DNA of 64,000 bases from Artemia franciscana (Eukaryota; Arthropoda; Branchiopoda; Anostraca; Artemiidae). Of this stretch, positions 1,584-63,149 are shown one piece after another (position 1 is the first letter of the stretch; every line of letters begins with the position of its first letter). The notes under the pieces were generated by a model. That model was not told the DNA's origin, did not search any database, and worked only from the letters and a program-made list of their open reading frames with translations. Both the position numbers and the translations under genes were made by a program. The stretch is from NCBI RefSeq assembly GCF_032884065.1, contig NC_088872.1:4774001-4838000 (forward strand), read 5' to 3'.

Positions 1584-1643
1584 ATAAATAAAATGGTATC
1601 AAATGATAAATTCATTCAAACAAAACAGAACAAAATAATCAAA

Positions 1644-3318
1644 AAGTTCGTGGTAATGAACTGTAGTAAAGAGCGACCCGGCTCAATAGTAACCGAAACT
1701 CTAAAAAACGGGATTTTTATAACAGTAGTTACGTCAAAAGAATCGAATTTTAATGCTGATTTTAAATATATAGGTTTCATTAAGTGTAGACTTACCTATC
1801 AAAAGATACGAGCCTGAGAAAATTTGCCTTATTTTAGAAAATAGGAGGAAACACCCCTTAAAAGTCATAGTATCTTAACGAAAATCACATAATCAGATTT
1901 AGCGTATCAGAGAACCCTACAGTAGAAGTTTCAGGCTCCTATCAACAAAAATGTGGTATTTTACATTTTTGCCACAAGACAGATGACGGATGCGTTTTTA
2001 TTTGTTTTTTTTTGTTTTTTTTGTTTGTTGTTTTTTTTTCCAGGGGTGGTCGAATCGACCCAATGAACCTAGAATCTCGTGAGAGGGCTCATTCTAACGG
2101 AAATTAAAGTTTCTAGTGCCCTTTTTAAGTGACCAAAAATTGGAGGGCACCAAGGCCCCCTCCCATGCTCTTTTTCTCCCCTAAGTCACGGGATCAAAAT
2201 TTTGAGATAGCCGTTTTATTCAGCATAGTCAAAAAACATAATAACTGTGTCTTTCAGGACGATTTACTCCCCCACAGTCCCCGTGGGAGGGGCTTCTCCC
2301 ACGTTTTGTTCAGCATAGTCAGATTTTCTGACTAAGCTGAACAAAATGGCTATATCCAAATTTGGATCTGGTAACTTCGGAAAAAACAATAGCGTGGGAT
2401 GGGGCCTAGATGCCGTCCAATTTTTTGGTATCTTAAAAAGTGAGCTAGAACTTTTAATTTACATTAAAATGGGCCCTTCCAGTAAAACGTAAAATGTGGC
2501 TCACGTAAAAAAGAGCCACAGTCCCCGTGGGAGGGGCTGCAAGTTATAAACTTTGACCATTGTTCACATATAGTAATGGTTATTGGGAAGTGTACAGACG
2601 CTTTCAGGGGGATTTTTTTGTTGGGGGAGGGTTTGAGGGGAGGGGGTTATGTGGGGAAGCTTCTCATGGAGGAATTTGTCACGGGGGAAGAAAATTTCCA
2701 TGAAGGGGATGCAGGATCTCTTAGCATTTTTTTTTGAGAACAATGGTAAAATAAACATGAAAAAGTTTTTTCAACTGAAAGTAAGGAGCAGTGTTAAAAC
2801 TTAAAACGAACAGACATTTTTACGCATATGACGGGTTCACCTCCTCATAATACTTCGCTCTTTACGCTAAAGTAATTTTATTAATTCCAACTATTTATTC
2901 TACAGCCTTTGTGATTCAGGGGTCATTCTTAAGAAATTGGGACAAAATTTGAGCTTTAGTGTAAAGAACGAGGTACTGACGAGGGGGTGAATTCCGTCTT
3001 ATACGTAATAAAAACATAAAAATATAGAAGTTCGTTACGTAAGTTAATTCGTAGGTTACATATATTTTTACTAATAAAAACGTTCGTAAAAAATTAAAAG
3101 TTCTAGTTACCTTTTAAACAATCCAAAAACTGGAGGGTAACTAGGCCTGGGAGGGTACTACCCCGCTCCTTTTTCTCAAAATTGTCCGATCAAAACTATG
3201 AGAAAGCCATTTAGCCATAAAAATAAATTTGGTTTTAATTATTCATATGCGGAGAGCCAAAATCAAAACATGCATTAATTCAAAAACGTTCAGAAATTAA
3301 ATAAGTAAAACAAGTTTT
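1644..3318 (+). repeat. Family A modular repeat, + orientation (left arm of giant inverted repeat)
   Basis: Noncoding repeat of two modules. Module A1 (1644 to about 2760) begins at a small palindrome around gttcgtggtaatgaactg and carries G/C-rich blocks such as ggagggcaccaaggccccc. Module A2 (about 2770-3318) begins aactgaaagtaaggagc and ends in attaattcaaaaacgttca. The same sequence recurs at 15655-17640, 18063-19312, 23068-23620 and, reversed, at 6336-7795 and 44990-45432. No ORF is conserved between copies, so this is a dispersed, probably non-autonomous element. The mechanism is unknown. Confidence 0.85.
2100..2475. repeat. Nested inverted duplication with tight hairpin
   Basis: The segment 2100-2330 of module A1 is followed at once by its reverse complement (2325-2475). 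The junction at about 2305-2348 is a near-perfect hairpin: ttttgttcagcatagtcaga and its complement around a three-base loop. Other family A copies lack this. Confidence 0.75.
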
Positions 3319-5700
3319 TATGGCACTTGGTATTAACCAAGTGACATATAGCAATCGCCAATTCTGTCGGTCTGTCTGTCTGTCGGTCTGTCGGTCCCGG
3401 TTTTGCTACTTTAGGCACTTCCAGGTAAGCTAGGACGATGAAATTCGGCAGGCGTATCAGGGACGGGACTAGCTTAAATTAGAAATAGTCGTTTTCCCAA
3501 TTTGACCATCTGGGGGAGAGTGGGGGGCCGGTTAATTCGGAAAAAATAGAAAAAATGAAGTATTTTTAACTTATGAATGGGTAATGGGATCTTCATGAAA
3601 TTTGATGTTTGGAATGATATTGTGTCTCAGAGCTCTTATTTTAAATCCCGACAGGATCTGATGATATTGGGGGAGTTGGAGGGGGGAAACCTAAAATCTT
3701 GGAAAACACTTAGAGTGGAGGGATCGGGATGAAACTTGATGGGAAAACTATGCACAAGTCCCAGATACATGATGGACATAATCGGAACGGATCCGCGCTC
3801 TTTGGGATAGTTGGGGGGGAGATAATTCTAAAAAATTAGAAAAAATGAGGTATTTTCAACTTACGAACGGGTAATGTGATCTCAATGAAATTTGATGTTT
3901 AGAAGTATATCGTGTCTTAGAGCTCTTTTTTAAAATCCCAACCGGATCTGGTGACATTGGGGGGGGGAGTTGGGAGGGGGAAACCTAAAACTTGGAAAAC
4001 GCTTAGAGTGGTGGGATCAGGATGAAACTTGGTGGGAAAAATAAACACAAGTGCTAGATACATGATTGGTATAAACGGAACGGATCTGCTCTCTTTGGGA
4101 TAGTTGGGGGGGGGGTTATTTCTGAAAAATTAGAAAAAATGATGTATTTTGAACTTACGAACAGGTGATCGGATCTCAATGGAATTTGATATTTAGAAGG
4201 ATATCGTGGCTCAGGGCTTTTATTTTAAACCCGACAAGATCAGGTGACATTGGGGGGGGGGGGAGTTGGGAGGGGGAAACCTAAAACTTGAAAAACACTT
4301 AGAGTGGAGGGATCGGGATGAAACTTGGTGGAAAAAATAATCGTGAGTCCTAGATACATAATTGGCATAATCGGAACGGATCCGCTCTTTTTGGGGTAGG
4401 TGGGGGAGGGGTTAATTCTGAAAAATTAGAAAAAATTAGGTATTTTTAACTTACGAACCTACCGGATCTCAATGAAATTTGATATTTAGAAAGTTATCGT
4501 GTCTCAAAGCTCTTATTTTAAATTCTGACTGGATCTGGTGACGTTGGGGGAAGTTTGAAGTGGGGAAACCTAAAATCATGAAAAACGCTTATATTGGAGG
4601 GATCGGGATAAAACTTGGTGGGGAAAATAAGCAGAAGTCTTACGTACGTGATTAACATAATTGGAACGAATCCGATCTATTAGGGAGGGGGGAGGGTTAA
4701 TTCTGAAAAATAAGAAAAAATGACGTATTTTTAACTTATGAAGGAGTGATCGGATCTTCATGAAACTTCATATTTAGAAGGACCTCGTAACTCAGATCTC
4801 TTATTTTAAATCTCAACCGGATCAAGCGTAATTGGGGGGGGGGGGCAGTTGGGGGGGGGGGCGGAAATCTAGAAAATACTTAAAGCGGTGAGATCAGGAT
4901 GAAACTGGATGGGAAGATTAAAAACCCGTCTAAGATACGTGACTGACATAACCGGACCGGATCTGCTCTCTTTGGTGGAATTGGAGGGGGGGGTAATTTT
5001 GAAAATTAAGGTATTTGTAACTTACGAAAGGGTGGCCAGATCTTAATAAAATTTGATATTTAGAAGGATATTGTGCTATAAAGTTCTTATTTTAAATTCT
5101 GACCAGATCCTGTGACGTTGGGGGAGTTGGAGGGGGAAACCGGAATTCTTGGAAAACGTGAAAATTGGGGTATTTTTATCGTACGAATAAATGATCGGAT
5201 CTTAATGAAATTTGATTTTTAGAAAGACTTCATGTCTCAGAGCTTTTATTTCAAATCTTGACCAGATCGTTTGACGTTGGGGGGAGTTGGAGGGAGAAAT
5301 CTTGGAAAAACACTTGGAGTGTAGGAATCAGGATGAAGCTTGGTGTATAGAATAAACAAATGTCCTTGATATGTGATTGACAGAATCGTATGGATTCGCT
5401 CTCTTTGGGAGATTTGGGGGGAGGAGTTCAGTGACTTGGCGAGTTTGGTGCTTCTGGGCGTGCTAGGACGATTAAATTGATAGGCGTGTCAGGGAGCTGC
5501 ACAATTTGACTTGATAAAGTCGTTTTCCCACTTTCGACCATCTAGGGGGCTAAAGGGAGAGGGAAATTTAGAAAAAATTGGGTATTTATAACTTACGAGT
5601 GGGTGATCGGATCTTAATGAATTTTGATATTTAGAAGGACATCGTGACTCAGAGCTCTTATTTTAAATCCTGACCGGCATTAAGCCTCTTATTTTTCTTT
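3319..5700. repeat. Tandem array, about seven units of roughly 290 bp
   Basis: Units start with a G-rich run then ttctgaaaaattagaaaaaa. Starts lie near 3532, 3822, 4116, 4411, 4697 and 4993, spacing 286-296 bp, with shortened units near 5160 and 5565. Each unit carries phrases such as gatctcaatgaaatttgat, gggaaacctaaaa and cggaacggatccgctc. The array is entered by a ctgtcggtctgtc-type stretch at 3365-3400 and a unique leader (ttccaggtaagctaggacga). A degraded leader copy sits near 5440-5540. A related single unit on the other strand lies at 34498-34822. Confidence 0.9.
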
Positions 5701-5814
5701 TTAAATAAATCTATTGATTCATAGAATTTTGTTAGAGCTCATACCATATGATCTCTTGGCTCTTAGCTCTTCTCGCCTCGTCACAAGTGCCATATGAGCT
5801 CTTAGCTCTTGTTT

Positions 5815-6052
5815 TTTAACTGAAAGTAAGGAGCAATATTAAAACTTAAAACGAATAGAAATTACTCCGTATACAAAAGGGGCTGTTCCCTCCAGAATGC
5901 CCCGCTTTTTATGCTAAAGTTTTTTAACTGTTTTAAAAAGTAGAGTTGAGAAAAAGAGTAAAACTTTAGCGTAAAGAGCTGAGTGTTGAGAAGGAAACAG
6001 CCCCATTCATATACAGAGTAATTTCTGTTCGTTTTAAGTTTTAATTAAATAA
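5815..6052. repeat. Foldback palindrome, module A3, copy 1
   Basis: Arms start aactgaaagtaaggagc and return as the complement of aaacgaatagaaattactcc. The centre is around ttttaaaaagtagagttgag. The right arm stops in taattaaat, so the last part of the palindrome is missing. Confidence 0.8.
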
Positions 6053-6057
6053 AAAAA

Positions 6058-6336
6058 AACAAGTTTTTTTAAATGAAAGTAAGGAGCGACATTAAAACTT
6101 AAAACGAACAGAAATTACTCCGTATATGAAAGGGGCTTTTCCTTCTCGACACCCCGCTCCTTGCGCTAAAGTTTGATTCTTTCTCGCAACTCTACTTTTT
6201 AAAACAATAAAAAACTTTAGCGTAAGGAGCGGGGTGTCGAGGAGGAAAAGCCCCTTTCATATACGGAGTAATTTCTGTTCGTTTTAAGTTTTAATGTCGC
6301 TCCTTACTTTCATTTAAAAAACCTTGTTTTTTTTTA
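6058..6336. repeat. Foldback palindrome, module A3, copy 2 (complete)
   Basis: Two arms of about 120 bp are nearly exact complements (gaaagtaaggagcgacatta ... and its return at 6280-6310). The short centre is near gcaactctactttttaaaac. The outer ends are poly-T/poly-A next to caag/cttg. There is no coding potential. Confidence 0.88.
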
Positions 6337-7795
6337 TTTAATTTCTGAAAGTTTTTGAATTAATGCATGTCTGATTTTGGCTCTCCGTACATAAATTACT
6401 AAAATGAAATTTGCATATTAATTCTTTTTTTGGCTAAATGGCTTTCTCTTAGTTTTGATCAGACGATTTTGAGAAATAAGGGGTGGGGAAGGAGGTCTAG
6501 TTGCCCTCCAATTTTTCGGTTACTCAAAAAGGCAACTAGATTTTTGCCTTTAAAAAGGCAAATAGAATTTTAATTTTTAACGAACGTTTTTATTAGTAAA
6601 AAAAAAAGTAACTTGAGAATTAACTTACAGTAACAAACGTACATAACTTACGTAACTTACGTTACGTTTTATCCCAATTCTTTAAGAATGACCCCTGAAT
6701 CAGAAAGGCCGTAGAATAAATAGTTGAAATTATTTAAAAAATTTTTAGCCTAAAGAGCGAAGTATTTATCTCCTCCTAAATACCTCGCTCTTTATGCTAA
6801 AGTATTTTTAGAACCCTTCATATGCGTAATAATCTCTGTTCGATTTAAGTTTTAATGCTTCTCCTTACTTTCAAATGAAAAAACTTTTTCATGTTTATAT
6901 TTTCATTGTTTTTTTTATAGTAATGCTAGAAAGTCCTGCGCCCTTTTCATTGAATTTCTCTTCCCCCGTGAAATACTCATCCAAGGAAAGATCCTCCCAT
7001 ATAGCCCCCTCCCCTGAACCCCACACCCAAGCCAAAAAAATCCCCCTGATAACGTCGGTACACTTCCCAGTAACCATTACTGTATGTAAACATTGGTCAA
7101 AGTTTGTAACTTGCAGCCCCTCCCCCAGGGACTCTGGGGGGGGGGGGGTAAATCATCCCCAAAGACATAGTTATTATGGTTTTCGACTATGCGGAACAAA
7201 ATGGCTATCTCAAAATTTTGATCCGTTTTGGGAAAAAAATGAGCGTGGGAGGGGGCCTAGGTGCCCTCCAATTTTTTTGGTCACTTAATAAAGGCACTAG
7301 AACTTTTCATTTCCGTTAGAATGAGCCCTCTTGCAACACTCTAGGACCACTTGGTCGATACGATGACCCCTGGGGAAAAAAAACAAAAACAAATAAACAC
7401 TCACCCGTTATTTGTCTTCTGGCAAAAAATACGAAATTCCACATTTTTGTAGATTGTACCTTGGAATTTTTCTATAGGGTTCTCCGATACGCTGAATGCG
7501 ATGGTGTAATTTTCGTTAAGATCCTATGACTTTTAGGGGGTGTTACCCCCTATTTTCCAAAATAAGGCAAATTTTCTCAGGCTCGTAACTTTTGATGACA
7601 AAGACTAAATTTGATGAAATTTATATATTTAAAATCAGCATAAAAATCCGATTCTTTTGATATATCTTTTAGTATCTAAATTCCGTTTTTTAGAGTTTCG
7701 TTTACTATTGAGCCGGGTCGCTCCTTACTACAGTTCGTTACCACGAACTGTTTGATATTGCTCCTTACTTTCAGTTAAAAAAACTTGTTTTTTTT
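6336..7795 (-). repeat. Family A modular repeat, - orientation (right arm of giant inverted repeat)
   Basis: This is the reverse complement of the sequence at 1644-3318: module A2 at about 6336-6880, then A1 to about 7765. It ends with the complement of the start palindrome (cgttaccacgaactg) and one more gctccttactttcagtt. Translations in this stretch are by-products of the repeat and are not conserved between copies. Confidence 0.85.
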
Positions 7796-7839
7796 TATTT
7801 AATAAAATACAAAGGAAGATTAGGTTTGAAAGCTTGTAT

Positions 7840-8687
<848 letters not shown>

Positions 8688-9759: not shown

Positions 9760-10290
9760 TTCGTACTTACTACCACTACTACTAATAACTCACTGCAGCA
9801 CCAAGCCGCCTGAGGCCAACACAGCTACGCAAGCTCCTCCTCCAACCTAATCTATTCAATGCCTCCCTCTTTCCAACCTCCCAGGAAGTTCCCATTTCCT
9901 TTAAATCTGTATTTATGACATCCTCCCAACCCAGACAAGGACGACCTGCTTTCCGTGTAGCCCCAGACGGTTGGCCAAAAAGGACAATCTTCGGTAATCT
10001 GTCATCCTTCATCCGTAGAACGTGGCCTAGCCATCTCAACCTTTCTTTCATTGTAGCCCCAGAAAGCGGGATTGAACCACACTTTTCGTACAACCTACTG
10101 TTTGAAATACGGTCAGTCAGCCGGGAACCCAGAACAATTCGTAGGCAATTTCTCTGGAAAACATCTAGTAAATTTTCATCTGCTTTTCGGAGTGCCCATG
10201 CTTCAGAGCCATATTTGACCACTGTCATCACTGTAGCTTCCTATATTCTAATCTTGATTTGCAGAATTATCTTTCTATTCTTACAAAAAA
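9760..10290 (-). mobile_element. RTE-like LINE, 3' fragment
   Basis: Reading the minus strand from about 10285, the frame runs ILQIKIRI, a stop, then MTVVKYGSEAWALRK, DVFQRNCLRIVLGSRLTDR, RWLGHVLRMKDDRLPK and GRPCLGWEDVINTDLKEMG. This is the conserved C-terminal region after the reverse transcriptase of RTE/BovB-like non-LTR elements. It stops at 9782 and is followed by a tagtagtag-type tail (9770-9785 on the complement). The element is strongly 5'-truncated. Three more copies of the same family occur in this window (37860, 40815, 47685). Confidence 0.85.
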
Positions 10291-15641: not shown

Positions 15642-16319
15642 ACGTGATTAATCAAACAGTTCGTGGTAACGAACTGTAGTAAGGAGCGACCCGGCTCAAT
15701 AGTAAACGAAACTCTAAAAATGGAATTTTGATGCTAAAATATACATCAAAAGAATCAGATTTTCATGCTGATTTTGAATATATATAAGTTTCATCAAATT
15801 AGTCTTTGTCATCAAAAGTTACGAGCCTGAAAAAATTTGCCTTATTTTAGAAAATAGGGGAAAACACCCCCTAAAAGTCACAGAATCCTAACGAAAATCA
15901 CACCATCGTATTCAGTGTATCAGAAAACCCTATAGCGAAATTTTCAAGCTTCTATCTACAAAAATGTGGAATTTCGTATTTTTTGCCAAAAGACAAATCA
16001 CGGGTGCGTGTTTATTTGTTTGTTTTTTTTGTTTTTTTTTCCAGGGGTCATCGTATCGACCAAGTGGTCCTAGAATGCCGCAAGAGGGCTCATTCTAACG
16101 GAAATGAAAAGTTCTAGTGCCCTTTTTAAGTGACCAAAAAATTGGAGGGCACCTAAGCCCCCTCCCACGCTCATATTTTCTCCAAAGTCAACAGATCAAA
16201 ATTTTGAGATAGCCATTTTGTTCTGCATAGTCAAAAACCATAATAACTATGTCTTTGGGAATGACTTACTCCCCCAGAGTCCCTGGGGGAGGGGCTGCAA
16301 GTTACAAACTTCAACCAGT

Positions 16320-16793
16320 GTTTACATATAATAATGGTTATTGCGAAGTGTAGAGTCGTTTTCAGGGGATTTTTTTTAGTTTTGGGTTTGGGGTTGAGGG
16401 GAGGGGGCTATGTGGGAGGATCTTTCCTTGGAGAAATATGTCATGGGGGAACAGAAATTCAATGAAAAGGGCGCAGGATTTCCTAAAATTACTATAAAAA
16501 AAAACAATGAAAAAATAAACATGGAAATTTTTTTCAATTGAAAGTAAAGAGTAGCATGTTTACATATAATAATGGTTATTGCGAAGTGTAGAGTCGTTTT
16601 CAGGGGATTTTTTTTAGTTTTGGGTTTGGGGTTGAGGGAAGGGGGCTATGTGGGAGGATCTTTCCTTGGAGAAATATGTCATGGGGGAACAGAAATTCAA
16701 TGAAAAGGGCGCAGGATTTCCTAAAATTACTATAAAAAAACAATGAAAAAATAAACATGGAAATTTTTTTCAATTGAAAGTAAAGAGTAGCAT
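16320..16793 (+). repeat. 238-bp tandem duplication inside family A
   Basis: 16320-16557 and 16558-16793 differ by only a few bases and a small A-run change. Both run from gtttacatataataatggtt to aaagtaaagagtagcat. Their similarity is far above that between dispersed copies, so the duplication is recent. Confidence 0.92.
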
Positions 16794-17344
16794 TGAAACT
16801 TAAAACGGACAGAGAGTATTACGCATATGAGGGGTTCTAAGAATACTTTAGCATAAAGAGCGAGGTATTTAGGAGGAGATAAATACCTCGCTCTTTATGC
16901 TATAGTATTTTTAGTAATTTCAACTATTTATTCTACGGCCTTTCTGATTCAGGGGTCATTCTTAAAGAATTAGGACAAAACTTACGATTTTGTGTAAAGA
17001 ACGAGGTATTAACGAGGGTACGAACCTCCTCATATACATAATAAAAATTAATGAATATAAAAGTTTGTTACGTAAGTTAATTCTTAAGTTACGTATATTT
17101 TTTACTAATAAAAAAATTCGTTAAAAATTAAAATTTATTGTTGCCTTTTTATGTAACCGAAAAATTGCATGGCAACTAGGCCTCCTTCCCCATCCCTTAT
17201 TTCTCAAAATCGTCTGATCAAAACTAAGAAAAAGCCATTTAGCCAAAAAAGGAATTAATATGCAAATTTCATTTTAATAATTTATGTGTGGAGAGCCAAA
17301 ATCAAACATGCATTAATTCAAAAACGTTCAAAAATTATATAAAA

Positions 17345-17622
17345 AAAACTAGTTTTTTAAACTGAAAGTAAGGAGCGACATTAAAACTTAAAACGGACAG
17401 AAATTACTCCGTATATGAAATGGGTCTTCCCCTCCGCAATCCCTCACTCTTTACCCTAAAGTTTGACTCTTTGCCACAATTCTGCTTTTTAAAACAATTG
17501 AAAGCTTTAGCGTAAAGAGCGAGGGATTGCGGAGGGGATAACCCATTTCATATACGGAGTAATTTCTGTCCGTTTTAAGCTTTAATGTCGCTCCTTACTT
17601 TCAGTTTAAAAACTAGTTTTTT
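17345..17622. repeat. Foldback palindrome, module A3, copy 3
   Basis: Arms of about 120 bp: actgaaagtaaggagcgaca outward and its complement at 17588-17608. The middle is around ctttttaaaacaattgaaag. Arm differences from copy 2 are often matched in both arms: cctccgcaatccctc here pairs with gagggattgcggagg. Confidence 0.88.
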
Positions 17623-17640
17623 TTATATAATTAGCTTATA

Positions 17641-18060: not shown

Positions 18061-18062
18061 TC

Positions 18063-18820
18063 AAACAGTTCGTGGTAAATAACTGTAGTAGGGAGCGACC
18101 CTGCTCAATAGTAACTAAAACTCTAAAAAATGGAATTTTGATACCAATAGCTACATCAAAAGAATCATAGTTTTAATGCTGATTTTAAATATATAAGTTT
18201 CATAAATTAGTTTGATTTTAAATATATAAGTTTAGTCTTACCCATCAAAAGTTACGAGCCTGAGAAAATTTGCCTTATTTTAGAAAATAGGGGGAAATAC
18301 CCCCTAAAAGTCACCACCAGACTCAGCTATCAGAGAACGCTATTGTAGATGTTTCAAGCTCCTATCTACAAAAATATGGAATTCTGTATTTTTTGCCAAA
18401 AGGCAGATCACGGATGCCTGTTTATTTGTTTGGGGTGTTTTTTTCCCAGGGGTGATCGTATCGACCCAGTGGTCCTAGAATGTTGCGAGACGGCTCGTTC
18501 TAACGGAAATGAAAAGTTCTAGTGCCCTTTTTAAGTGACCAAAAAAACTGGAATGCACCTAGGCCCCCTCCCACGCTAATTATTTTCCCAAAGTCAACGG
18601 ATCAAAATTCTGAGATAGTCATTTTATTCAGCATAGTCGAAGAACCTTATAACTATGTCTTTGGGGACGACTTACTCTCCCACAATCCCCGTAGGAGGGG
18701 CTACAAGTTACAAACTTTGACCAGTGCTTACATATTGTAATGGTTATTGGGAAGTGTACATACGTTTTCAGGGGGATTTTTTTGTTGGGGGAGGGGTTGA
18801 TAAGGGGGGATATGTTGGGG
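18063..18820 (+). repeat. Family A, module A1, + orientation
   Basis: Starts at cagttcgtggtaaataactg and breaks off in ggggatatgttgggg, within A1. A small internal duplication repeats gattttaaatatataagttt at 18180 and 18213. Confidence 0.82.
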
Positions 18821-18827
18821 TTAAAAA

Positions 18828-19312
18828 AACTTGTTTTTTTTATTTAGTTTCTGAACGTTTTTGAATCAATGCATGTTTTGATTTTGGCTCTCCGCAGGGA
18901 ACAATTAAAACGAAATTTGCATATTTATTTTTTTGGGCTCCATGGCTTCCTCATAGTTTTGATCGAATTATTTTGAGAAAAAAAGAGCGGGGGAGGAAGC
19001 CTAGTTGCCCTCCAATTTTTTGGTTACTTAAAAGGCAACTAAAACTTAAAATGTTTTACGAATGTTTTTATTAGTAAAAGATACACGTAACTTATAAATT
19101 AGCCTGCGTAACGAACTTTTGTATTCTCATATTTTTATAACATATATGAGGGGGTTCACCCCCTCGTTAGTACCTCGCTCTTTAAACTAAAGCTTAAATT
19201 TTGTCCCAATTCATTAAGAATGACCCCTGAATCACAAAAGCCCTTGAATAAATAGTTGAAATTACTAAAAATACTTTAGCGTAAAGAGCGACGTATTAGG
19301 AGGAGGTGAGCC
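18828..19312 (-). repeat. Family A, module A2, - orientation, joined head-on to the + copy
   Basis: Starts acttgttttttttatttag and runs through the complement of A2 (gcatgttttgattttggctc, ggaagcctagttgccctcc) to cgtaaagagcgacg. Orientation switches within about 8 bases of the end of the preceding + copy. Confidence 0.8.
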
Positions 19313-21445: not shown

Positions 21446-22290
21446 GTGAGAGGCAAAAAACAATTTAATAGGGAGGGTGGATGACCAAAATGTTCACAGG
21501 TATTGTCCGCATGCCCCTGATAATTCTGAACAAGCGGTGGTATTGCGGTGTCGAAATTTGCAGATATCGCAACCCCCCTTAAAAGGTAGGCAAAATTATG
21601 CTTATGATTAAGAAAGATTGACTCTTTCACTAACCTGACGGTGGTTCGTCTCCTTCATCATCATCCTCACTATTTGTCACCATCAACACCGATATAGAGC
21701 ACATCCTCGGACTGTTTTTGAAAGTTTAAAAAAAGGATCGCACATAGAAAAGCCTTTATTTATACCTTTTTTGCGGGTAGACCTACCCTGGGGGTTTAAT
21801 TTACAAGTTTTACAAGAAACAGGATAATAAATTTAGTTTTTTTAGGGATATTTCCTTATCAAAGATAGTCATGCTAAATTTTAATTATTCAAGGCTCGAC
21901 AGGATTGGCTGTCAACTTTTGTCCCTAGAGTGCTACACGGTTCGGTCTTGTGACTACAGTCATGTGACTTAAACTTGATTTTTACAGGTAATGAAAAAAA
22001 GGAAAATGAAGAACTTTGCACTAACCAACTTGTACGACGTAGCTTGACAAATAGTATACGCAAAATGGATATGTTATAGGAGTTAAGTGCCCGCCCCAAG
22101 GTTATTTCATTTACATCAAAAGAAAGGATTTGGAACAGAACGCTGTGTTGTATACAGGATGTTGCGACGGACAGTGTGATACTTCTCGACAGTTTATACA
22201 CGTCCCTAATTATTACGTCCCTAATTCATGGTAAGGAAGCTCTAGAAGTAGCCTAGCCGAGACACCATTTTGTAGGAAACAAACAAAATA
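21446..22290. other. No feature recognised
   Basis: Short frames only on both strands. Confidence 0.4.
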
Positions 22291-22292
22291 GT

Positions 22293-22503
<211 letters not shown>

Positions 22504-23042: not shown

Positions 23043-23067
23043 GTAAGAAATACAAAATACATATTCA

Positions 23068-23620
23068 AACAATTCATGGTAGTGAACTGCAAGTAAAGAG
23101 CGACCCAGCTCAATAGTAGCTAAAACTCTAAAAAAAGGAATTTTGATACCAATAGATATATCAAAAGAATTGGTTTATAATTCTGATTCCAAATATGTGA
23201 GTTTCATTAAGTTTAGTCGATTCCATCAATCTCTACGAGCCTGAGAAAATTTGCCTGATTTTCGAAAAAAGGGGGAAACACCCCCTATAAGTCAAAGACT
23301 CTTGAAAAAAATTGAACCATCAGGTTCAACTTATCAGAGAACCCTACTATAGAGGTTACAAGCCCTTGTCAGCAAACATGTGGAATTTTTTATTTTTTTC
23401 TTAGAAAAAAGATCACGGATGCGTGTTTGTTAGTTTGTTTGTTTTTCCAAGGGGTTGTCGCCGACCCAGTGGTCCTAGTATATCAGAAGAGAGCTTTTAT
23501 GAACGCAAATCAAATGTTCTAGTGCCCTTTTCAAGTGAACAGAAAGATTGTAGGGCAACTAGGCCCTCCCACTCCCTTTTTTTTCTCAAAATCGTCCCAT
23601 CAAAATTTTATTCCAGTCCA
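23068..23620 (+). repeat. Family A, module A1, diverged + copy
   Basis: Starts acaattcatggtagtgaact and follows A1 through gcgacccagctcaatagtag and cagtggtcctagtatatc to the ggagggcaact-like block, then breaks off where hAT sequence begins. Confidence 0.75.
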
Positions 23621-28001: not shown

Positions 28002-28640
28002 TCAAGACAACAAGAGGAACCGCCGAGGTTTCATCTTTGCAAAATCGTCAACAAGCTGGTCGTAGTCCAAATTTTTTACTAAATCCTTCTCTGCAAACAT
28101 CAAAAGGAGGTGACTAAGACGATTGTCTCCTGTTATAGACCGTAGGTAGTTTTTCGCTATTTCTAGGCTAGAAGACAAACTCTTATTGCTCGCTGTTGTC
28201 ACAGGAAGTGTTGCAGCAATATAGAGTATTTTAATTACTTCTGAATAAGCCACTGGTAATGCCTGAAGATAGTCGACAATGTCTAGGAAGTTTTTCGGCT
28301 TTTTCTCCTCATCGAGCAACAAACGCTTGGCAATACCAGCTTGAGATTCGAGAAGAATGTCGTCGATATCCAACTCGCCGTAGAGAGCAGAGAAGCGCTT
28401 GATCAACTCTGTGTCCATAAACTTGGTCGAGCTTGGATCCAAGGCTTCGAGTGTGCTCAGCACTGGCTAGTTATCAGTGAACCTCCTGTCAAATTCGGCT
28501 AGTAGACGGGCGAAAGATTCGGAGTACTCTCGCTTCATTTCATCCGCAAAAGTAGCAGTCCGATTTCCAGATTGGATGATGTTCTTTCCAAGCTTCGAAG
28601 TTGTCACAAATTTTTTCAGATGCTTGGTCATCTTTTGAGT
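28002..28640 (-). pseudogene. hAT transposase C-terminal region, one internal stop
   Basis: Reading minus from about 28637: MTKHLKKFVTTSKLGKNI, ADEMKREYSESFARLLAEFD, RRFTDN, stop (about 28468), then PVLSTLEALDPSSTKFMD. It continues to ALPVAYSEVIKILYIAATLP, SLSSSLEIAKNYLRSITGDN, RLSHLLLMFAEKDLV and DFAKMKPRRF. The last part is the hAT C-terminal dimerisation domain: the LP.T....RSFS..K..KT.LR.....RL pattern and the closing DDFA..K.RR. Apart from the stop it is well kept, so it decayed later than the LINE around it. The N-terminal two thirds are absent. Confidence 0.85.
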
Positions 28641-34366: not shown

Positions 34367-34390
34367 GCGAACATATTCCAAAGTGAATAT

Positions 34391-35089
34391 ATGTAAGAAT
34401 GTCTTTGGCACAATATTCAAATAATTTATTTGGTATTGTTATGTTTTAACACAAGGTTACCTTAATATGGTTCCTTAATATTGCTTCAAATTTTTCTTTG
34501 TTTGTCCCTGAGTCCATTTCTGCCAGGTATCCTTCCAGACCACGATATCCTTCCAAACATCAAATTTCATTAAGATCTGATCAACCTTTTGTAAGTTAAA
34601 AGTACTTCATTTTTTCTGAATTTACCAGCCCTCTCCCCAGATGGTCAAATTGGGAAAATGGCTATATCTAATTTAATCTGGTCTGGTCCCTGATACGACT
34701 GCCAAATTTCATCGTCCTAGCTTACCTGGAAGTGTCTAAAGTGGCAAAACCAGGACAGACCGACAGACAGGCTGACAGATCGACAGAATTCGCGATTGCT
34801 ATATGCCATAAATACTTTGACAAAATCTCCATTTCTTGTGAAATTACAAATGTAGCAAAAAGCTATGCTGAGGTATGACTTGTATGGAACTTGGAACTTA
34901 GCACATGGAATAGTATACAGTATGGAACTGGACAATGTGAACCTATGTAAGAATGTCTTTGGCACAATATTCAAATAATTTATTTGGTATTGTTATGTTG
35001 CCAAATGTTTTAACACAAGGTTACCTTAATATGGTTCCTTAATATTGCTTCAAATTTTTCTTTGTTTGTCCCTGAGTCCTTTTCTGCCA
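34391..35089. repeat. Direct duplication of about 140 bp flanking a 0.4-kb segment
   Basis: 34391-34525 and 34944-35089 both run from atgtaagaatgtctttggca to tccctgagtcc.tttctgcca. The second has an extra ttgccaaatg-like insertion after gttatg. Confidence 0.9.
34498..34822 (-). repeat. Single reversed unit of the 290-bp array with its leader
   Basis: Complement of the 3325-3650 sequence: catcgtcctagcttacctgg, gacagaccgacagac and cgcgattgctatatgcca match the leader, followed by the first part of a unit (atcaaatttcattaagatct). Confidence 0.85.
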
Positions 35090-35166
35090 ATTATTCTCCA
35101 TAATCTTTATGGACACAAAAAACAGCTATCCAACAGATAATCTGATTATTTGAGTTGATTTTATGA

Positions 35167-36120: not shown

Positions 36121-36782
36121 AGAGTCACATCTCTTTCTATGCTGGACCACCAACTTTAAGTTAAGTAAGTCAGTTGTATCATTCACTCTCATTGCCTCCG
36201 AACATAAAAGTTGCCCAGAGTTCTCTGCTGACTTTGTTTTGTCATCATAAAACGTTAGTACTCTTCAAAAACCCTAATTGCTAAATCAATCTAGAACTGC
36301 ACCAAATACTATGACATCTCTGTTGTTATAGCACTTTCAAAAAACTTGCTCACTAACACAGCCTTAGATCGAGTTTCACACTGCTGGAAATCAGGTCAGA
36401 TTTAGTAACTTCTGTGCCATAACTATGTTGCCTCATTCTTTCATATAGGAGATAGCTTGGGGGCTTAACTATTTCAGGCTTGTAGGGTATTTCAAGGCTC
36501 TAATATCTTGTGTTTATTTTCCAACATGGCATTGGATTGGTCCAAGGGCTTACAGGTTACCTTTGATACCATGAATAACAATACATAATTCTAATTCATG
36601 GTATGTATAGCCTCTTTAAATTTTGTGGAGAATATCAAAGATCAACTGGTAAAACCCTGAGTGATAAGCTCAAGGATTCGAAAGGACTTGGGCATAACGG
36701 CCTTTGAGTAGGGAGCAAACCTTGGGTTTTCATCAGTTGAAGTATTAATAACTTAAAGATACCTTATGCACCATCAATATGT

Positions 36783-37233
36783 AAACATTAAAAACAAGAA
36801 GAACAATAGTGAAATATTTTCGCAAGACAGTCGAATTCTATATTTAAATGAATATTTCGACCCTATGTCCAAGGATTGTCCTCAGCAAAATATAAATATG
36901 TAAGAGAAAAGAGACTTGTATTGAAATACAACCATTAAAACTAAAATGAAAAATTTAAAACAGTCCCAGTATCCTTACTTCAACAAAGTTCAATCAGGAG
37001 TTCACAAATTTCAAATCTTAAATCTTAATTTTCCTTATCTCCATAGCTCTTCTATGAGCTATTATCATTTTAGTTTTAGTGGTCATATTTTAATGCAAGT
37101 TCTCTTTTCTTTTATATATTTATATTTTGCTGAGGACAGCCCTTGGACATAAGGTCGAAATGTTCATTCAAATATTGAATTTCACTATCTTGTGAAAAGA
37201 TTTCCCTGTTGTTCTTCTTGTTGTTGATGTTTA
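36783..37233. mobile_element. Foldback/MITE with arms of about 120 bp
   Basis: The left arm (36783-36904: caagaagaacaatagtgaaa, tatttcgaccctatgtccaa, gtcctcagcaaaatataaat) returns as complement at 37110-37233 (atttatattttgctgaggac, cttggacataaggtcgaaat, ttgttcttcttgttgttgat). The loop holds the short repeat also seen at 1505-1583. Confidence 0.85.

Positions 37234-37602: not shown

Positions 37603-63149
<25,547 letters not shown>

Follow-up and report, generated by a model that had tools for sequence, protein, structure and literature searches.

The closest described systems are the rolling-circle transposons of the Helitron and Helentron groups. Canonical non-autonomous Helitrons begin with TC, end with CTRR and insert at an A^T target (PMC4067079, PMC4778049). 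The Helitron 3' hairpin acts as a terminator, and elements that read through a missed 3' terminator display end bypass (PMC4778049). The Helentron-associated elements of DINE-1 type, or HINEs, are non-autonomous Helentrons. In the oyster Crassostrea gigas (Cg_HINE) they consist of a 5' subterminal inverted repeat (subTIR), a complementary inverted repeat, a microsatellite, a tandem array, a 3' subTIR and a palindrome, and several of the oyster microsatellites are of type GTCY, GTCC or GTCK (PMC7492417). Mite HINEs (HINE-Mo) enter T-rich sequence and leave the target unmodified (PMC4067079). Do such elements account for a large palindromic structure near the start of a 64,000-nucleotide stretch of Artemia franciscana contig NC_088872.1 (positions 4,774,001 to 4,838,000; the window)? 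The original prediction had placed there one giant modular inverted repeat of about 6 kb, built of two opposed copies of a repeat family (family A) around a tandem array. This giant repeat is very probably a commonplace nest of transposons instead of an element of a new kind. It can be read with high confidence as three independent insertions of two non-coding families, A and a second element, B, in a eukaryotic genome, both families looking like rolling-circle (Helitron/Helentron-type) transposons.

Comparison of the window with itself recovers every component that had been described: a plus A copy (cp1), a minus A copy (cp4), the array of 290-bp units and the palindromes. The inverted arms (1638-2294 against 7756-7115) are 80% identical (self-BLAST, E 4e-176), with 86% complementarity over the first 290 nt. 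Both foldback palindromes are present, one of 301 bp (6043-6343, 91% self-matching) and a weaker, interrupted one (5838-6045, 76%). The limits require revision. The plus copy, given as 1644-3318, starts at 1639 by alignment of ends; the minus copy, given as 6336-7765, runs from 7755 to 6045; and the structure ends at 7802 instead of 7795, since 7756-7802 is the final piece of the cp1 palindrome. The nest thus spans 1639-7802 and holds cp1, B and cp4. That the DNA is mobile and non-coding, with real palindromes, agrees with what had been proposed, as does repeated transposition, one of the two readings offered. The single 6-kb element does not stand: within the window A moves alone, as the solitary and complete copy cp2 indicates, and the array belongs to B, which is separate from A and of which a piece lies apart at 34541-34808.

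The evidence for nesting lies in the terminal palindrome of cp1. Its first part reaches from about 3298 to a T run at 3319, where B intervenes; a second part covers 5812-6044 and abuts the reversed cp4; and the outer end of the cp1 right arm, absent there, is found on the far side of cp4 as 7756-7802. With 6044 joined to 7756, the right and left arms agree at 60 of 62 aligned positions, an identical stretch of 32 nt spans the joint, and self-complementarity of the palindrome climbs from a score of 162 to one of 274 (computed separately from the shuffle test below). The joint bases read AATATT in both cp1 arms and GACATT in cp2 and cp4. Cuts at 6043/7755 and 6045/7757 are equivalent (a slash marks a joint or an element boundary), so that the cut is placed only to within two bases (AT). 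The left arm is broken by B (...ACAAGTTTTT/B/TTTTTTAACTG...), and the uninterrupted right arm reads ACAAGTTTTTTTAACTG. Three points tell against this reconstruction. The AATATT bases are not private to cp1, as an arm fragment at 22281-22397 has them too. Against the cp1 left arm, the arms of cp2 and cp4 show 56 to 58 matches in 62 positions, and one cp4 arm shows 63 in 69; because other A arms match nearly as well, discrimination rests mainly on the AATATT bases and the flawless continuation across the joint. Lastly, removal of B leaves 11 T versus 7 in the other arm, where the ends of B or a short duplication may be responsible. A simple test, in which omission of one arm restores the palindrome in the other, points to a nest, and the supposed new transposon class is removed.

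The large inverted symmetry arises because the second A copy was inserted reversed into the end of the first; it is a by-product, without function of its own. Could 1639-7802 be instead a composite, foldback-type element that transposes as a unit, the A copies serving as long inverted ends? Composite or Foldback/Galileo-type elements transpose with such ends; the long inverted arms (80-86%) do enclose an array, and a second plus/minus A arrangement is found at 18061-19312. A composite is highly improbable, however. The outer right end, 7756-7802, belongs to the cp1 palindrome and not to the minus copy, the flanks of cp4 reconstitute the cp1 arm, A moves alone, and the pair at 18061-19312 lacks B and breaks at other positions. 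Foldback/Galileo-type elements likewise have large palindromic segments, but the A palindrome is found only at the 3' end, and the inverted symmetry over 6 kb is a product of nesting.

The arms, moreover, are not sister copies. Over the 5' region, cp4 shares 92.2% identity with cp2 and 84.0% with cp1, and over the whole alignment 88.3% and 83.4%, respectively. As the two large arms are not closest relatives, neither a unitary element nor a local inverted duplication, which predict cp1 and cp4 as the closest pair, is favoured. Palindromes can seed inverted duplications, and a replication template switch or breakage might have duplicated one A copy with the array between; the inner inverted A segments (2325-2477 and cp3) do look like template switches. 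This local origin is scarcely credible, as cp4 is closest to a copy 8 kb away, which refutes it unless gene conversion took place between cp2 and cp4, and as cp4, a complete copy, has both a TC start and a 3' palindrome of its own, and its omission restores the target. Local alignment puts the identity between the two arms of each terminal palindrome at 84.5% (cp1), 93.2% (cp4) and 95.9% (cp2), and the BLAST values are 91% (cp4) and 88% (cp2). Which of cp2 and cp4 ranks higher thus varies between the two methods; cp1 is lowest. The low value fits cp1 as the oldest copy, as nesting needs, though gene conversion between arms could distort it.

Judged from its sequence, the mobile unit is family A alone, of about 1.7-2.0 kb, as defined by cp2. 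This copy has 1979 bp, starts with TC and carries 4 nt from the end a hairpin, ACAGTTCGT-GGTA-ACGAACTGT; its first 51 nt fold at -11.7 kcal/mol (DNA parameters). On the 3' side a palindrome of about 300 bp extends to the terminus (...TTTTTTTTATATAA). The flanks are GATTAA/.../TTAGC, and the flanking sequence when joined reads GCACGTGATTAA/TTAGCTTATAAG. Before the later insertions cp1 was about 1.96 kb long and likewise ended in a palindrome. All six A 5' ends have TC, one with an extra T ahead (TTC); the 5' flank is A in five of six copies, and the three complete copies all stand between A and T. Self-complementarity of the terminal palindromes reaches 294 (cp1, joined), 417 (cp2) and 464 (cp4), where 200 shuffles of each gave maxima of 52, 36 and 48. 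Subterminal inverted repeats are found in cp2 (AACTG-nAGTAAGGAGCGAC) and cp4 (AGTAAGGAGCGAC), and none of 500 shuffles attains either score. A short hairpin within the last 45 nt is weak in the two copies folded (cp2 -1.1, cp1 -3.1 kcal/mol).

To which class does A belong? With canonical non-autonomous Helitrons it shares the TC start, the A/T flanks, the want of a long target duplication, the apparent absence of coding capacity and a terminal palindrome on the 3' side. It differs in ending with ATTTAA or ATATAA instead of CTRR, in having a 5' hairpin and in a 3' palindrome of about 300 bp, as against a 16-20 nt hairpin about 11 nt from the end. The subTIRs, in part, and a T-rich 3' end recall Helentrons and HINEs, but the flanks are A/T and not T/T. 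As A resembles each group only in part, it is filed as a member of neither. That it moves as a rolling-circle element is nonetheless the fairly probable reading, and restoration of the target on removal of cp4 fits insertion between A and T without duplication. Four findings speak on the other side. The CTRR end is absent from the three complete copies (TTAA in cp1 and cp4, ATAA in cp2); cp3 has G instead of A as its 5' flank; the subterminal inverted repeat of cp1 is decayed and not significant, its score being reached by 26 of 500 shuffles; and no Rep/helicase appears in a Pfam scan of 20 of the 66 stop-to-stop open reading frames (ORFs) of at least 90 aa in the window (standard code). Within the same nest, A might be a non-autonomous element of cut-and-paste or some other type that duplicates 2 bp (AT) of its target, since the flanks of all three complete copies can equally be read in this way (...AT/CAAAC...TTTA/AT...), CTRR is missing and no autonomous partner is seen within the window. 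This is somewhat unlikely: the 5' TC, the A/T flanks, the 5' hairpin and the subterminal inverted repeats of two of the three complete copies fit Helitrons/Helentrons, and terminal alignments show no inverted repeat at the very ends that is common to both termini.

Family A is mildly unusual in its long 3' palindrome; in a narrow search of open-licence literature, represented by parts of its texts, none like it is named for Helitrons or Helentrons. In layout, family A is an imperfect dimer, with a core (nt 451-567 versus 1474-1589, 73%) and a palindrome arm (1114-1179 versus 1702-1767, 82%) that recur in the same order within cp2. End bypass could have produced this layout. With a 300-bp palindrome at the terminator site and the inner relic of another, A is a possible system for the gain and bypass of terminators.

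Element B can be assigned to the HINEs with fair assurance, as it has the parts of the published layout in order (PMC7492417, PMC4067079): a subterminal-repeat hairpin, a TCTGTCGG microsatellite, the array, an inverted repeat CAAGTGCCATA and a short hairpin. The microsatellite and central tandem repeats are an optional HINE feature. At the start of B the subterminal repeat and its complement form a hairpin, TATGGCACTTGGT-ATTA-ACCAAGTGaCATA, and folding of the first 45 nt yields -11.5 kcal/mol (DNA parameters). The 3' subTIR matches the 5' one in inverted orientation at 11 of 11 positions (TATGGCACTTG/CAAGTGCCATA), with a score of 22, where 500 shuffles gave 21 at most, and is followed by a 3' hairpin, GAGCT-CTT-AGCTC (-3.6 kcal/mol). 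A T run lies on both sides of B. The repeat scan gives the array a period of 290 and 5.5 copies (3514-5124), with diverged units continuing to about 5425 by self-comparison; the four adjacent pairs among the first five units are 76.5-87.8% identical. B differs in that its 3' subTIR is about 17 nt from the end, versus 38-60 bp in mite HINEs (PMC4067079). The likeness is one of layout.

In the history proposed, cp1 would have inserted first, at 1639. The HINE-like B would later have entered the left arm of the cp1 terminal palindrome, and cp4, before or after B, would have inserted reversed in the right arm. Movement of A would involve a Rep/helicase supplied in trans, with transfer from the 5' TC end to the 3' hairpin or palindrome and presumably without target duplication. 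Did the palindrome itself play a part? Both insertions in cp1 fall within it, that is, within 15.4% of the length of cp1, the chance of which is 0.024 for two independent events (n=2, AT content uncorrected). It is conceivable, though improbable, that in A, as a rolling-circle lineage, the 3' terminator expanded to a palindrome of about 300 bp that also serves as a landing pad; on this reading, extruded single-stranded arms would attract further A and HINE insertions, and the family would so build nested inverted stacks.

Table 1. Coordinates of the parts of the nest and of related copies in the window (cp1 to cp4, copies of family A; a slash marks an element boundary)
Feature	Position	Strand	Basis or remarks
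cp1, first part: 5' end (TC, hairpin AGTTCGTGGTAATGAACT) to left palindrome arm, with an extra segment that holds an inverted core (2325-2477)	1639-3319	+	aligns to cp2 81.4%, cp4 83.4%; 5' flank A/TC
Element B (HINE-like), in T run of cp1 left palindrome arm	3320-5811	+	ends approximate to a few T
TCTGTCGG microsatellite (GTCK/GTCY type), left flank of B	3363-3396	+	repeat scan
Central tandem array of B, units of about 290 bp	3514-5425	+	repeat scan, self-comparison
cp1, continued: remaining left arm, centre and most of right arm of 3' palindrome	5812-6044	+	self-comparison, alignment
cp4, complete, 1711 bp, in right arm of cp1 palindrome	6045-7755	-	own terminal palindrome 6045-6345
cp1, last part: outer 47 nt of right arm and 3' terminus (...TTTTTTTTTATTTAA/T)	7756-7802	+	alignment
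cp2, solitary complete A, 1979 bp	15652-17630	+	terminal palindrome 17333-17630; flanks A/TC ... ATAA/T
cp3: A 5' part 18061-18820 (+) joined to inverted A stretch 18821-19312 (-)	18061-19312	.	self-comparison
Diverged A copy, 5' part only	23064-23609	+	self-comparison
Diverged A copy, 5' part only	45024-45434	-	self-comparison
Separate B-family fragment: left flank and start of one tandem unit	34541-34808	-	self-comparison

Absence of coding capacity, as originally proposed, is borne out. Just one of the 66 ORFs lies wholly inside 1639-7802 (6833-7288), and it has no Pfam match at E 0.01. Three ORFs cross the right edge (7712-8140, 7756-8136 and 7795-8136), all carried by an (AT)n repeat outside. 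A mean GC of about 0.345, long (AT)n and ORFs with saposin and reverse-transcriptase domains point to a eukaryote, probably an animal; the scaffolds of Artemia franciscana are described as having 34.71% GC and 8.81% rolling-circle elements (PMC11492255). Exact-pattern scans for A gave no matches in prokaryote genome contigs or viral contigs, the scan for B gave none in viral contigs, and blastn of cp2 against phages and plasmids found no match. None is expected, as these collections are prokaryote, plasmid, phage and virus and the source is eukaryotic. A tRNA scan of the window found none. All 21 Rfam matches (E up to 1) fall under the gathering score and were rejected as generic hairpin or AT matches; they represent 19 microRNA models, one snoRNA and one viral untranslated region and lie on A palindromes or (AT)n. 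A ribozyme reading of A was likewise rejected, there being no Rfam match to a ribozyme.

Elsewhere in the window, RVT_1 is found in three ORFs (52945-53943 and 53874-54875, minus; 47773-48591, plus), which appear as retrotransposon remnants. An ORF without Pfam match at 9782-10240 (minus) seems to be another, 9768-10287 being 92% identical to 48212-48732 in inverted orientation. The hAT C-terminal dimerisation domain at 28002-28466 (minus) marks a hAT transposon remnant. ORFs with SapA and SapB_2 (42221-42562 and 59745-60050), about 17 kb apart, may be exons of a single saposin gene whose introns are long.

In cp1, a reversed A core at 2325-2477 (80-82% to cp4 and cp2) is flanked by two copies of cagtccccgtgggaggggct, which suggests an inner inverted duplication. 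At the cp3 joint (18820/18821) the inverted stretch opens with 26 nt closely like the A 3' end; cp3 may be what a deletion left of a second reverse-nested pair, or may reflect a template switch. Within cp2, a 238-bp tandem duplication (16319-16793) is probably younger than cp2 itself, because its copies are 98.7% identical. The fragment at 22281-22397 that shares AATATT with cp1 is a lone arm of an A-type terminal palindrome beside a (TA)n stretch, with no adjoining A body. A 136-bp A piece at 60936-61071 is 95.6% identical to cp4 and has neither A end. The lone B fragment is bracketed by a direct repeat (34379-34533 and 34933-35097; 165-nt alignment, 90%). Another palindrome, of 452 bp (36782-37233, about 76% self-matching), has no BLAST match to A, and its inner part resembles 1510-1580 (80%), directly left of cp1.

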